Source: a virus
IMG/VR virus record: IMGVR_UViG_3300021085_000203
Span: 1 to 24,883 of that record
Reading direction: 5' to 3' (one strand)
DNA length: 24,883 nucleotides
The notes beneath the pieces were generated by a model, which was not told the DNA's origin, searched no databases, and saw nothing but the letters and a program-made list of their open reading frames with translations. Position numbers and translations under genes: made by a program. This document shows positions 987-12,441 of this stretch, in pieces (positions within the stretch are counted from its first letter, which is position 1; every line of letters begins with the position of its first letter).

Positions 987-2024
987 TTATGCTGCTTCAT
1001 TCTCTACTTCGATATCAAGTTCAACAACACTCTGTAGACCTATTTGATATTGTTTCTTTAGGAAGTCTTTGAAGTCAGTTTCTTTAAATATAGGAGACCA
1101 GAAGTCTTCTGTGAGAGTAACATCTTTACGAACCTTCTTATCAGTTCCAGCTCGTTGATACCAACCGTTAGATGGTTTTTCCACATAACCTCCAGCCAAT
1201 GCCACATCAAGTAGACCCGACCATTTTTCTACACCACCATTCCAAGACACACTGATAGGAATCTTAGAATTTTCTTTGGCGTATCGAGACTTCTCAACTT
1301 TAATTACAAAATCATAACCAGTAACTTCTGTACCAGTCTTGTTCTGTCTACGACCAATGATCCATACATTGTCTGCACTATACATGATACCAGTACCGCC
1401 AGAGACAACATCTTTAGGATAGAGACCGATCTCTTTGTATGTATGGTTAATAGCGATCATAGGAATCTTCTTCATATTTAAGTATGGTGTTGCCATACGG
1501 AATAAAGACTTGAACGCTTTTGCACGTGACATATCAGCAACAGACTTACCATCTCTAGCATCATCTAATTCTTTCTTAGATGCAAGGTTACCGACAGAGT
1601 CAATTACTATAATAACATCATCTTTCTCAGTTAAGTTTTCTAACTGATTGATTAAGTCAAACTTTAATTCCTCAACATCTTTGATAGGTACGTGTAATAC
1701 ACGAGTAGTGTCTATACCAAACTGATCAAAATAAGACTGAGGAGATCCAAACTCAGAATCATAAAAAAGCATCACTGCATCTTTTTTATGTTTAAGGTAA
1801 GCACCAGCCATCAATAATGCAAAGGAAGTCTTGAAGTGTTTAGATGGACCAGCAAGAACCGTAAGGCCTGGCGTTACTCCCCCATCAGTAGAACCAGAGA
1901 GTGCTACATTTACCATAGGCACTTCAGTAGGAACCATATCCACTTCAGTAAAAAACTTACTATCCGCAAGGGTAGAACTATCTTTTACTCTAGACTGTTT
2001 TTTCAATTTATCCATTAAATTCAT
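987..2024 (-). CDS. uvsX: UvsX recombinase (RecA/Rad51-like)
   Basis: T4 UvsX homologue, 345 residues. It forms ATP-dependent filaments on single-stranded DNA and does strand exchange for recombination-dependent replication, loaded by UvsY. The Walker A region is GPSKHFKTS (residues 59-67), matching the atypical GPSKxFKS loop of T4 UvsX. Walker B is DVIIVIDSVGNLASKK, with Asp142. The stretches MSRAKAFKSLFRMATPYL, IAINHTY and GGTGIMYSADNVWIIGRRQ are also UvsX-typical. The C-terminus is shorter than in T4 (about 390) but ends in an acidic stretch. The start ATG overlaps the stop of the dehydrogenase gene as ATGA, with GGAG about 9 nt upstream. It is the last gene of the operon beginning at the promoter at 4858-4830. 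Confidence 0.96.
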   Translation of the reverse strand: MNLMDKLKKQSRVKDSSTLADSKFFTEVDMVPTEVPMVNVALSGSTDGGVTPGLTVLAGPSKHFKTSFALLMAGAYLKHKKDAVMLFYDSEFGSPQSYFDQFGIDTTRVLHVPIKDVEELKFDLINQLENLTEKDDVIIVIDSVGNLASKKELDDARDGKSVADMSRAKAFKSLFRMATPYLNMKKIPMIAINHTYKEIGLYPKDVVSGGTGIMYSADNVWIIGRRQNKTGTEVTGYDFVIKVEKSRYAKENSKIPISVSWNGGVEKWSGLLDVALAGGYVEKPSNGWYQRAGTDKKVRKDVTLTEDFWSPIFKETDFKDFLKKQYQIGLQSVVELDIEVENEAA

Positions 2025-2932
2025 TCTTTATCTTCTCCAAAATTCACAAATGTAATATTATTAACTCTTTCACGATCATCTAACTCATAGTCCTTTCGGT
2101 AACGAGTGTTGATATCTAGAATTCTTTCTAGAATATCCATTGATACTATGTTCCCATCTTCATCAGTCTGTTCAGAAAACTTTAAGAGAGCATTAGTATC
2201 TTTCGGCAAACATGCGCCACCGAAACCACGTTTCTTATCGAAGCCCGGCACACGTGTATGACCGATTCCGACTCTGGGATCTAATCCCACAGTACGTGAT
2301 ATAATATTGTAACTGCAACCATACATATTAATCAAATCATAAATCTGATTAAAGAATGTAACCTTAGTCGCTAGGTACGAATTGATTGTATACTTTACAA
2401 AGGAAGCTTCAAATGCTGTCATATAGTGGTAGTCATTAGATGCACATCCACTAAATATATCATAAATTTCACTTAGTTCACGAGTTGCAGATTCTGATCC
2501 ACCCATGACATGATAGTCAGCATTGACAAAGTCCGCCTTGGCATTAGACTCTGTAAGAAACTCTGGGTTATAAACAAAACGATCCGTATCCTTAAGATCC
2601 ATAGAACTATAAATCTTATCAATTATATCGGGAGTTACTGTCGATTTAACAACAACTAATGCTTTAGTATGGATAAGAGATTTTTGTACTGCATCAATAA
2701 CAATAGTAGCATCAACCTTACCATCTTCGCCTTGTGGTGTTGGTGCGCATACGAATACGAGATGAGGAGAAAACTCTTTCAAGTCATCAATGGAAGTATT
2801 ATATTTTGGGTCTACAGCATAAGACTTCACCAAAGGATGGGTGAATGCATATTCTACAGCCTGTCCAACAAACCCATGACCTACTATAGCAAGTCGGAAT
2901 TGGTTATTAGGACTCAATGGTTCATTATTCAT
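2021..2932 (-). CDS. UDP-glucose/GDP-mannose 6-dehydrogenase family protein, compact
   Basis: NAD-dependent nucleotide-sugar dehydrogenase of the UDP-glucose/GDP-mannose family, most likely UDP-glucose to UDP-glucuronate because a glucuronate epimerase-like gene precedes it. The N-terminal Rossmann motif is AIVGHGFVGQA (residues 15-25). Other family motifs are VVVKSTVTP (93-101), YNPEFLTESNAKADF (121-135), FVKYTINSYLATKVTFFNQI (178-197, with the usual Lys and Asn), and GFGGACLPKDTNAL with catalytic Cys241. At 303 residues it lacks most of the usual C-terminal nucleotide-sugar-binding Rossmann domain (family length about 390-450), yet the frame is intact and the tail is not frameshifted, so it seems a compact phage form. 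It overlaps the genes on both sides (start at the epimerase stop, ATGA with uvsX). The exact substrate is inferred, not seen. Confidence 0.88.
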   Translation of the reverse strand: MNNEPLSPNNQFRLAIVGHGFVGQAVEYAFTHPLVKSYAVDPKYNTSIDDLKEFSPHLVFVCAPTPQGEDGKVDATIVIDAVQKSLIHTKALVVVKSTVTPDIIDKIYSSMDLKDTDRFVYNPEFLTESNAKADFVNADYHVMGGSESATRELSEIYDIFSGCASNDYHYMTAFEASFVKYTINSYLATKVTFFNQIYDLINMYGCSYNIISRTVGLDPRVGIGHTRVPGFDKKRGFGGACLPKDTNALLKFSEQTDEDGNIVSMDILERILDINTRYRKDYELDDRERVNNITFVNFGEDKE

Positions 2933-3879
2933 TATTTAACCTTATGGTAATCTTTGTACCACGCATAAAAGTTTTTAATACCGTCTTCGATATTAGTTTT
3001 AGGGACGTAACCCAATCCCTCCAGTTTAGTCGTATTAGACCAAGTCTCTAAAGAATCTGCTGGATGTCTAGGAACCAAATCAATTATGGCATCTATACCA
3101 CAGTTCTTTTCAATCTCCCTTACAAAATGCATAAGGTCAACTTGTTTGCCACGACCAATATTAAAGATTTCACTATTCCCAATTTCATTATTGTGAATAA
3201 CGATTTCAATACCATCTAAGATATCTTCAACGTATGTGAAGTCTCTTTTCATATTACCATAATTATACACTTTTATTTCGTTTTTGTCAAGTATATTTTT
3301 AGTAAAATCAAACAAAGCCATATCGGGTCTTCCCCAAGGGCCATATACAGTAAAGAATCTAAGTCCTGTATTATTCAGTCCAGATATCTCAAACTGAATT
3401 TCGTTGATGTATTTGGTATAAGTGTAGGCGTTTAACTGTTTTCCGAGTATCTGATTTTCTTTCCATCCATCTTCAGGTATCTCGGTTCCACCAAACACAC
3501 CAGAAGTTGATGCATAAATGACTCTAACATCAGGAACAACTTCCTTACACATTTCAATAAGGTTTTGTGTACCGTCAATGTTGTTTGCATGGTATTCAGA
3601 TTCCTTTCCGAAAGAATCTCTAACTCCAGCATGTGCCGCAAGGTGAACTATAGTATCAGGTCTAAAGTCACCCAATACAATTCTTAATCCATCCCTATCT
3701 CTCAGATCACATTCAGAAACATCTAATCCAAAATGATTTACTCTATCTCTTTTCAGTTCTGGTTCATAAAGATGATTGTTGTAGTTATCTAAACCACGAA
3801 CATCATGTCCACTATTCCTTAACCTATTTGTTAATTGTGAACCGATAAATCCTGCGGCTCCAGTTACTAATATTTTCAT
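2932..3879 (-). CDS. NAD-dependent epimerase, UDP-glucuronate 4-epimerase-like
   Basis: Extended short-chain dehydrogenase/reductase of 315 residues, a full-length single-domain enzyme. The cofactor motif is TGAAGFIGSQ (6-15), the active site is S-T-S at 124-126 with Tyr152-x-x-x-Lys156 (YTYTK), and the substrate region is LRFFTVYGPWGRPDMALFDF. This last region with YNYGNMKRDFTYVEDILDGI is characteristic of UDP-glucuronate 4-epimerases, which turn UDP-glucuronate into UDP-galacturonate. A dTDP-glucose dehydratase or UDP-glucose 4-epimerase is less likely, and a UDP-xylose synthase cannot be excluded from motifs alone. It is sandwiched by start/stop overlaps (TAATG with the upstream primase-like gene) and is followed directly by the dehydrogenase that would supply its substrate, so the pair reads as a two-step UDP-sugar pathway. 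Confidence 0.88.
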   Translation of the reverse strand: MKILVTGAAGFIGSQLTNRLRNSGHDVRGLDNYNNHLYEPELKRDRVNHFGLDVSECDLRDRDGLRIVLGDFRPDTIVHLAAHAGVRDSFGKESEYHANNIDGTQNLIEMCKEVVPDVRVIYASTSGVFGGTEIPEDGWKENQILGKQLNAYTYTKYINEIQFEISGLNNTGLRFFTVYGPWGRPDMALFDFTKNILDKNEIKVYNYGNMKRDFTYVEDILDGIEIVIHNNEIGNSEIFNIGRGKQVDLMHFVREIEKNCGIDAIIDLVPRHPADSLETWSNTTKLEGLGYVPKTNIEDGIKNFYAWYKDYHKVK

Positions 3880-8424: not shown

Positions 8425-8835
8425 CTAATTAATTGAAATTTTGCGAGGTCGCCTTTCTTCAGGTAACTCTATCTCCATTTGGATCGATAGAATACCGTCC
8501 TTAAGAAGGGCACCAGCCACTTCTACATATTCGGACAATCTGAATACCCTTTTAAACTTTCTTGTTGAGATGCCACGATGGATATAATCCTTGTCAGCAG
8601 AACCGCTACTATCACCCACAACAGTGAGAGTACGTTCTATAGATTCAATTTCGATTTGTTCTTGGGTAAATCCCGCAACAGCGATTTCAATAAGGTAATC
8701 TGTGTCTGATACCTTTATTATATTATGAGGAGGATAGTTATCGTTTGCGTTTTTTGCAACGAAGTCCAACTCATTAATAAGATGATCGAAACCCACAAAC
8801 GCGTTACGTGGGAATAATTGCTTTACAGTAGTCAT
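8425..8835 (-). CDS. hsp20: Small heat shock protein Hsp20 (alpha-crystallin/IbpA-like)
   Basis: ATP-independent holdase chaperone of 136 residues, a typical length. The N-terminal arm contains FDHLINELDF. The alpha-crystallin domain covers about residues 36-125: YPPHNIIKVSDTDYLIEIAV-AGF at the beginning, the TLTVVGD strand, RGISTRKFKRVFRL, and LLKDGILSIQMEIELPEE at the end. The C-terminal ISI is the usual I-x-I tail motif used in oligomer assembly. Hsp20 genes of this type are common in marine T4-like phages and are thought to help capsid or host protein folding. The start has GGAG 7 nt upstream, partly closed in a predicted hairpin (8845-8870). It is transcribed divergently from the plus-strand gene at 8961. 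Confidence 0.93.
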   Translation of the reverse strand: MTTVKQLFPRNAFVGFDHLINELDFVAKNANDNYPPHNIIKVSDTDYLIEIAVAGFTQEQIEIESIERTLTVVGDSSGSADKDYIHRGISTRKFKRVFRLSEYVEVAGALLKDGILSIQMEIELPEERRPRKISIN

Positions 8836-8844
8836 ATTTTTTCT

Positions 8845-8893
8845 CCATTAGTTTCATGCAAGATTAATGGGTACCCGACCATTCGGCATACCC
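8845..8893 (-). promoter_or_regulatory. Structured hsp20 leader, candidate RNA thermometer
   Basis: Two overlapping inverted repeats lie in the hsp20 leader. The upstream hairpin has GGGTA/TACCC outside and CCGA/TCGG inside with an ATGG loop (8893-8869). The downstream one pairs CCATTA (8870-8865) with TAATGG (8850-8845), whose last GG is the beginning of the GGAG ribosome site. The two share bases 8869-8870, so they exclude each other. Folding energies were not computed. Confidence 0.45.
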
Positions 8894-8909
8894 GATTATA
8901 TATATAAGT

Positions 8910-9780: not shown

Positions 9781-10191
9781 TCAACTATTTCCTATATTGT
9801 ACTTAGGTTGCAAATTCCAGTTAGTTTTATCTTTATGAGATATTATCTTAATCTGTCTCATTGGGGCAAATTCTTTTACCATATTCTTATTTTCAATATC
9901 TATAAGACCCCAATCCTGTAAGAGAATAGCTATAGTGTTTCTTCTCATAATATCATTCTCTTCCAGATTAGATTTCTTACCGTCCAATAAAAACAATTCC
10001 TTAAAGTGAACTATAAAGTATCTACCTTGTTTGTGCAGTATGTGACATGATTGATATAATGTGTTGTCTCTTCTCGACGACACTCCAATTCTAGTTAGAG
10101 TTTCCCTCACCTTGAGAAAATCATCGGGTTCTGTCAACACTATTTCTAACATCTTCAGAGGATTCCATTCTACTAAATTATTTTCTTCCAC
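9781..10191 (-). CDS. regA: RegA translational repressor
   Basis: RNA-binding repressor of early phage mRNAs. From residue 14 it follows T4 RegA closely: MLEIVLTEPDDFLKVRETLT, RIGVSSRRDNTLYQSCHILH, YFIVHFKELFLLDGK, RRNTIAILLQDWGLIDI, and the C-terminal PKYNIGN. In T4 it blocks ribosome binding on genes such as 44 and 45 and autoregulates. The first codon is GTG at 10191 (AAGG 9 nt upstream), giving 136 residues with the extra N-terminus MEENNLVEWNPLK. ATG at 10152 would give the T4-like start but has no clear ribosome site. The gene overlaps the 3' end of gene 62 by 14 bp. Confidence 0.96.
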   Translation of the reverse strand: MEENNLVEWNPLKMLEIVLTEPDDFLKVRETLTRIGVSSRRDNTLYQSCHILHKQGRYFIVHFKELFLLDGKKSNLEENDIMRRNTIAILLQDWGLIDIENKNMVKEFAPMRQIKIISHKDKTNWNLQPKYNIGNS

Positions 10192-12128: not shown

Positions 12129-12205
12129 TGGCACGCCCGGCACGATTCGAACGTGCGACCCACAGCTTAGAAGGCTGTTGCTCTATCCAACTGAGCTACG
12201 GGCGC
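12129..12205 (-). tRNA. tRNA-Arg (anticodon TCT)
   Basis: 77-nt tRNA. Acceptor GCGCCCG pairs with CGGGCGT (position 1-72 is G-T), the D-arm is GCTCAGTTGGATAGAGC, the anticodon arm is ACAGC-CTTCTAA-GCTGT, the T-arm is GCACG-TTCGAAT-CGTGC, and CCA is encoded. It reads AGA, a codon common in AT-rich phage genes. Close to E. coli tRNA-Arg(UCU) in sequence pattern. Confidence 0.95.
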
Positions 12206-12209
12206 ATAT

Positions 12210-12285
12210 TGGAGCGGATAGTCGGGTTCGAACCGACGACCTCGACCTTGGCAAGGTTGCGCTCTACCAACTGAGCTATATCCGC
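12210..12285 (-). tRNA. tRNA-Gly (anticodon GCC)
   Basis: 76-nt tRNA with acceptor GCGGATA/TATCCGC, D-arm GCTCAGTTGGTAGAGC, anticodon loop TTGCCAA in the arm ACC-TTGCCAA-GGT, T-arm GTCGG-TTCGAAC-CCGAC and encoded CCA. A 4-nt spacer separates it from tRNA-Arg. Confidence 0.95.
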
Positions 12286-12290
12286 AATAT

Positions 12291-12360
12291 TGGAGCGGAG
12301 TGTAGGAACTTCCCCTACCTTCAATGAGTGGTACTCATCGACCCAATAACTGACCTCCGC
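12291..12360 (-). pseudogene. Degenerate tRNA-like element (tRNA-Gly relic or unusual tRNA)
   Basis: 70 nt between tRNA-Gly and tRNA-Glu with 5-nt spacers on both sides. GCGGAG pairs with CTCCGC, followed by T and CCA, nearly the tRNA-Gly ends. An anticodon-like arm GATGA-GTACCAC-TCATT would give anticodon ACC (Gly) after a T33. A 5-bp T-arm GTAGG/CCTAC has loop GGAAGTT rather than TTCGAAT. The D-arm is missing (14 nt where about 19 are expected). Either a decaying tRNA duplicate or a D-arm-less tRNA-like RNA that keeps the array spacing. Confidence 0.5.
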
Positions 12361-12365
12361 AAATT

Positions 12366-12441
12366 TGGCATCCCATACCGGATTCGAACCGATGTTGCTA
12401 GGATGAAAACCTAGTGTCCTAACCAACTAGACGAATGGGAC
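12366..12441 (-). tRNA. tRNA-Glu (anticodon TTC)
   Basis: 76-nt tRNA with acceptor GTCCCAT/ATGGGAT, D-region CGTCTAGTTGGTTAGGACA typical of tRNA-Glu, anticodon arm CTAGG-TTTTCAT-CCTAG, T-arm CATCGG-TTCGAAT-CCGGT and encoded CCA. It begins 5 nt after the stop of the 63-residue ORF, so it is probably cut from the gp45 transcript. Confidence 0.95.

Follow-up and report, generated by a model that had tools for sequence, protein, structure and literature searches.

The hsp20 locus

The stretch of DNA analysed here (the window) spans a virus record of 24,883 bases from a T4-like marine phage, the gene content of which includes a PolB-type DNA polymerase, a clamp-loader subunit, a RegA-type repressor and a major head protein. 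Its minus strand encodes, at 8425..8835, a 136-residue small heat-shock protein with an alpha-crystallin domain (hsp20; Pfam HSP20, 5.6e-15; PHROG 432, 3e-34), starting with an ATG at 8833-8835. The gene for the RegA-type translation repressor (9781-10191, minus strand; PHROG 242) lies near hsp20. Elsewhere on the same strand are three consecutive tRNA genes (12132-12441) and adjoining UDP-glucose dehydrogenase-like and nucleotide-sugar epimerase-like genes (2021-3879).

The hsp20 leader (8836-8897, minus strand, as are all of its features) carries a conserved RNA structure, the parts of which are defined by folding and by covariation. Hairpin I (8869..8893), GGGUA-U-(g)-CCGA AUGG UCGG-G-UACCC, contains a conserved U-G pair and a bulged G at 8887, and is joined by an unpaired linker, AUUAA (8864..8868), to a second hairpin (8842..8863), UCUU-g-CAU / AUG-GAGA, with a 7-nt loop. 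The latter, the supposed thermosensor, encloses the Shine-Dalgarno (SD) sequence GGAG (8843..8846), all four bases of which are paired, and is referred to as the SD hairpin; its irregularities are a bulged G at 8859 and a U-G wobble (8860/8845). The strand opposite the SD, UUGCA (8857..8861), is the counterpart of the ROSE motif U(U/C)GCU, with the difference that its last pair is A-U rather than U-A.

Immediately upstream of hairpin I is a late-promoter-type octamer, TATATATA (8897..8904, with a second register at 8899-8906); the T4 late promoter is TATAAATA. Such octamers occur in 73 of 81 distinct upstream stretches, compared with 3.3 expected in base shuffles, a count for which the accepted forms were picked after the leaders had been read, and from which stretches that were duplicated or shorter than 25 nt were excluded. 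The octamer lies 7-11 nt upstream of the UG of hairpin I in 72 stretches, and 13 nt upstream in one. Should it behave like its T4 counterpart, the 5' end of the mRNA would fall at hairpin I or slightly within it, and hsp20 would be a late gene.

Conservation of the leader structure

Similarity to the leader region at the DNA level gave a single 47-base match among GenBank phages (Prevotella phage Lak-A2), so relatives were gathered through the protein, initially as 15 loci and then as the best 80 of 257; the 80 yielded 41 distinct leaders and one locus, L211, without a leader. A second route, a blind DNA motif scan, gave at least 120 stretches. Of the 120 listed, a simple motif test places hsp20 directly after 45; most of those without hsp20 resemble GC-rich chance matches, the DNA pattern being too loose, and in one stretch (L116) the element is apparently present but the contig ends. 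The motif-selected set gave 43/43 for hsp20 leaders versus 10/205 for other genes, which, because this set is biased towards a bulged-G hairpin, is weaker evidence than that from the protein-selected sets.

Covariation was assessed on a MAFFT alignment (A2) of 54 nonredundant leaders, comprising 53 of 123 cores, i.e. after leaders six or fewer differences apart had been dropped, with the window taking the place of L138 and phage C48C1 added. The core set excludes L211 and also L166, for which the start was wrongly assigned. The alignment has flaws, in that L058 is misaligned and L149 is off by one column; the hairpin calls in L175, L177, L178 and L185 were set by a forced TGCCGA anchor, and L045 was given a corrected start.

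On A2 the two-hairpin structure is paired in 94.6% of 835 cells, versus 80.7% in shuffles, and versus 35-55% when the structure is slid along the alignment. Ten of its 16 pairs have changed on both sides (119 such cells), eight of them among the ten pairs of hairpin I, and none of 500 shuffles equals the structure on any of five covariation measures. RNAalifold, supplied with no structure, recovers the same two helices, with 8/14 pairs compensated. The outer pair of the SD hairpin is U-A in 22 leaders, C-G in 17 and A-U in 6, with an A.A mismatch in 9. The base following CTTGC is T in 51/54 leaders, A in two and C in one; the window itself has a compensated change here, having UUGCA..UGGAG where in the 51 a U follows CUUGC and an A precedes GGAG. 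In C48C1 the bulged G of hairpin I is kept while the upper stem CCGA/UCGG has become CCAC/GUGG. As a matter of comparison between leaders, these patterns demonstrate a real and conserved two-hairpin RNA structure ahead of hsp20, with the SD inside the second hairpin.

Predicted folding and response to temperature

The strong nested hairpin (GGGTA..CCGA/TCGG..TACCC) that the earlier note had read from the DNA is borne out as hairpin I, which dominates the predicted fold: the five pairs of its lower stem have predicted probabilities of 0.97-0.99 across 4 to 50 °C. The same note had proposed a weak, thermometer-like sequestration of the ribosome site. That proposal is supported for the leader, but the hairpin concerned is the SD hairpin, UCUUgCAU/AUGGAGA, and not the CCATTA/TAATGG pairing that had been named, which is considered with the alternatives below. 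The folding calculation over temperature that had been suggested as a check gives, for the window leader, predicted SD pairing of 0.99 at 4 °C, 0.94 at 25 °C, 0.79 at 42 °C and 0.62 at 50 °C. The SD hairpin alone is predicted at -3.7, -1.7 and -0.8 kcal/mol at 25, 37 and 42 °C, respectively, and with its 3' flank at -2.5 kcal/mol at 37 °C.

The predicted opening of the SD is gradual and shallow, a real weakness of the thermometer reading; predicted SD pairing averaged across 53 leaders drops only from 0.86 at 10 °C to 0.73 at 42 °C. These energies ignore the non-canonical pairs of ROSE elements, such pairs being a known feature of that class. Folding energy alone would not settle the structure, since the results of shuffling are mixed between leaders and flank lengths. 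The 60-nt window leader folds better than 200/200 shuffles (z -2.3), whereas with more flank 18/200 shuffles are equally good (z -1.4), and for the leaders of three relatives (L012, L013 and L014) 38, 10 and 10 of 200 shuffles, respectively, fold as well.

Relationship to ROSE and other thermometers

The leader had earlier been described as not obviously ROSE, a view that its core contradicts. As in ROSE elements, the SD is imperfectly paired within the 3'-proximal hairpin, with a UUGC-type anti-SD bearing a bulged G and a U-G wobble opposite GGAG; a stable hairpin, hairpin I (by fold and covariation), lies upstream, and a small heat-shock gene, hsp20, lies downstream. The motif U(U/C)GCU itself is not present opposite the SD in the window, where UUGCA is matched by a compensating U just ahead of GGAG. 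Four consecutive U residues opposite the SD, characteristic of fourU elements, are likewise absent, the anti-SD being UCUUGCAU.

The best Rfam family for the window leader is ROSE_3 (RF02523; 28.0 bits, E 1.5e-4 for 85 bases), although this is below the gathering score (43 bits), which neither the window nor any other of 18 chosen records reached. Fifteen of the 18 match ROSE_3 at E <=1 and three have no match; below-cut-off matches were also obtained in 6/14 control genomes, so that little weight can be put on any one weak score. Of 11 phage loci, none passed any of the Rfam thermometer families, and no phage leader searched passed an Rfam cut-off. A match of the leader to freshwater-2 RNA (12.8 bits, E 4.9) was taken as chance. 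The leader is placed as a ROSE variant, because its motif in the window differs from U(U/C)GCU and its scores stay below every Rfam cut-off.

The resemblance to ROSE_3 is in the two hairpins, with hairpin I (AUGCCGAA..UCGGGU) departing very little from the consensus, in the SD hairpin (anti-SD CUcGCu in ROSE_3) and in a similar start-codon context, whereas the linker and the flanks of the SD hairpin are unlike. The short ROSE-like thermometers of Pseudomonas ibpA similarly combine a GC-rich, temperature-insensitive hairpin I with a short SD hairpin ahead of a small heat-shock gene and, in the available part of that report, it is the second hairpin that melts and not the first (PMC3669281). They differ in being bacterial and under a sigma-32 promoter, where the window is phage; in having U(U/C)GCU rather than UUGCA in the short melting SD hairpin; and in the energy of the sensing hairpin, given there as -4.1 to -7.6 kcal/mol, versus -1.7 (alone) or -2.5 (with flank) for the window at 37 °C. 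ROSE (RF00435) of Bradyrhizobium and relatives and ROSE_2 (RF01832) of E. coli ibpA share their core and gene family with the window, but have longer leaders, with three to four hairpins as described in the available text (PMC3669281). Temperature-responsive leaders in phage genomes include lambda cIII, the SP-beta blyA fourU and a fourU sigma-70 element; in the accessible portions of the two reports none of these is of the ROSE type or on hsp20, and lambda cIII alternates between two conformations and is shut by warming (PMC11182007, PMC4166951).

A covariance model, R1, was built from A2. When R1 was run with filters off on 9,927 bases (E. coli K-12 and four bacterial loci), the top matches were the leaders of ibpB (14.8 bits) and ibpA (13.2 bits), of which the latter is Rfam ROSE_2 and the former also has a thermometer; the Bradyrhizobium ROSE leaders gave no clear match to R1. 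A scan with Hsp20s from a related branch of phages (A4, not including the protein of the window) gave 315 loci, the best 80 of which are bacterial and nearly all titled alphaproteobacteria, many of them Bradyrhizobium. R1 matched upstream at E <=0.12 in only three of these 80 (L304 twice, L300 and L285), and 9/26 tested leaders of those bacterial genes passed Rfam ROSE (3/20 in one set, 6/6 in a Bradyrhizobium and Afipia set). On these sequence comparisons hsp20 and its leader may well descend jointly from an alphaproteobacterial small heat-shock gene with its ROSE element, such joint descent being the simplest account.

Distribution of the element among phages

R1 scores the window leader at 62.6 bits and matches just upstream of the gene in 79/80 protein-selected hsp20 loci, some of which were in its training set; the sole miss, L211, starts within the gene. 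Apart from C48C1, the GenBank phages did not contribute to the model. Among 23 of them R1 finds the hsp20 leader in 17, i.e. 10/15 in a first batch at E <=0.026, which also gave one weak match elsewhere (E 0.98), and 7/8 in a second at E <=0.0085; none of five earlier misses was recovered on a repeat search. On whole records with stricter filters, the leader is matched in 18/25, the window and C48C1 included, and there are seven matches away from hsp20. One of these, in Agrobacterium phage Atu_ph07 (NC_042013, 224484-224535, plus strand; 24.8 bits, E 9e-4), is stronger than several of the leader matches; it is a second match in that phage, sits between two hypothetical genes on the opposite strand, and is either chance or an unannotated leader.

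A model-free search for a bulged-G helix over the SD found one in 20/24 GenBank phage hsp20 leaders, versus 0.87 expected from shuffles, adding four phages that R1 missed. In three of the four the SD is altered with its partner changed alongside, i.e. HTVC103P (GGAU), S-B68 (GGUAA) and S-TIM5 (GGUGG). By one or other method the element is present in 22/24 leaders; S-RSM4 has a similar hairpin by eye only, and the one remaining, from Vibrio phage PWH3a-P1, has no element by model, script or eye. Hosts named in the GenBank records are Synechococcus, Prochlorococcus, Pelagibacter, Methylophilales, Agrobacterium, Sinorhizobium and Pseudomonas. The element precedes hsp20 in most of the related phages examined, among them T4-like phages of marine origin and no fewer than two jumbo phages.

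In 11/14 leaders of Synechococcus and Prochlorococcus phages the anti-SD takes the alternative accepted ROSE form, UCGCU, and several GenBank cyanophage leaders (such as L225, L229, L232, L236 and L240) have a shorter upper stem in hairpin I, of the UGCCUUCGGGG kind. The cyanophage leaders with the shorter stem and UCGCU are a distinct form of the element.

Proposed mechanism and alternatives

The hsp20 leader is very probably a translational control element, and probably a thermometer, the latter by analogy with bacterial ROSE elements and from the modelled folding. The reading that we consider likely, from covariation, folding models and that analogy, is of a phage-borne, two-hairpin, ROSE-like translational thermometer on a late hsp20 mRNA. 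Transcription from the late-type phage promoter would start near the base of hairpin I, which, being stable and temperature-insensitive, probably guards the 5' end and keeps the leader correctly folded. The second hairpin, the structure of which comes from covariation, would pair GGAG with the UUGC-type anti-SD through the bulged G and U-G wobble, so keeping ribosomes off at low temperature. Warming is predicted to open the weak SD hairpin first and, as in the proven ROSE elements, this may allow Hsp20 to be made in late infection. A marine phage should, however, seldom meet heat shock in the laboratory sense, which counts against a thermometer.

The strongest alternative, though an unlikely one, is that a leader of this ROSE-like kind is chiefly an operator for self-repression, with Hsp20 binding its own 5'-untranslated region and blocking translation until unfolded proteins titrate it away; the leader would then sense protein damage or assembly load rather than temperature. 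In the available text of a study of IbpA, the proteins of E. coli, Cedecea and Vibrio repress their own translation via the ibpA 5'-untranslated region, with R93 required in all three and an aromatic residue at 34 required in E. coli (PMC10474464). Among 30 phage Hsp20 rows aligned with E. coli IbpA, the equivalent of R93 is Arg in 27 (Lys in two, Ser in one) and that of Y34 is Tyr or Phe in all 30; the window protein has both the Arg and an aromatic residue, and the single Ser belongs to PWH3a-P1, the phage without the hairpin. Arg at this site is, however, common in alpha- and gammaproteobacterial homologues, according to the portion of the study available (PMC10474464), so its presence in phage Hsp20 may be explained by descent alone. 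The E. coli protein additionally requires a positive charge at 98, and Lys at R93 fails there, as given in the same partial text (PMC10474464), whereas the K98 equivalent is Lys in only 2/30 phage rows and Val in the window, and the two phages with Lys at R93, C48C1 and Paride, both have the RNA element (by R1 only in Paride). Given the conservation of the Arg and the aromatic residue, a sensor of protein load could exist beside a thermometer or instead of it. It is conceivable, if doubtful, that many tailed phages, T4-like marine and some jumbo, inherit a complete circuit of hsp20 plus ROSE element in which Hsp20 also binds the leader. Were this so, chaperone would be made according to heat or the load of unfolded protein, and the circuit would in late infection be a viral sensor of proteostasis.

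Binding of the leader by another phage regulator, e.g. RegA, which would set the timing of expression with no role for temperature, is improbable. A RegA-like repressor is encoded nearby in the window, and directly before hsp20 as annotated in several cyanophages, but this proposal leaves unexplained the bulged G, the U-G wobble, the covariation of the hairpins and the likeness to bacterial ROSE elements. A role of the palindrome at 8869-8893 as a DNA operator or terminator, and not in RNA, is very improbable: it is an inverted repeat near a promoter-like octamer, but both sides of the stem change with pairs kept, the bulged G is on one side only and, as regards a terminator, no T-run follows it on either strand.

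Least credible is the switch, raised in the earlier note, between two exclusive hairpins, hairpin I and CCATTA (8865-8870)/TAATGG (8845-8850), the latter closing part of GGAG; both can be drawn, sharing the two bases 8869-8870, and the isolated CCATTA..TAATGG piece folds at -4.1 kcal/mol at 37 °C, but in the full leader this pairing competes with hairpin I for the shared bases and loses, with a probability of ~0.01 at every temperature from 4 to 50 °C. The check by covariation in related phages that had been called for supports hairpin I and the SD hairpin and not CCATTA/TAATGG, which is paired in 48.3% of cells versus 47.6% in shuffles (54 leaders). Hairpin I and the conserved SD hairpin have no bases in common and can therefore form together.

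In the literature searched, which is mainly open-access, so that a description elsewhere is possible, none of the matches listed reported by title or abstract opening that a phage hsp20 carries a thermometer, of the ROSE type or otherwise, and the word thermometer is absent from the two cyanophage small-heat-shock papers. In the part available of a 2024 paper, blyA is counted as no more than the second RNA thermometer from a phage genome, and the fourU sigma-70 candidate is put forward in addition (PMC11182007). With one structured element conserved before hsp20 across marine T4-like and at least two jumbo phages, two questions become testable: whether phages adjust the translation of their late genes to temperature, and why so many of them carry a small heat-shock gene. 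The leader alignment could also extend the public RNA-family models, the cut-offs of which these leaders miss.

A separate hairpin, TTGCTYTAGAAGCAA, occurs in three contigs (L070, L122 and L130) upstream of a clamp-loader-like gene (MNDVMLWVEKY/FRP...), which by resemblance we take to be gp44-like; it is possibly a translational operator.
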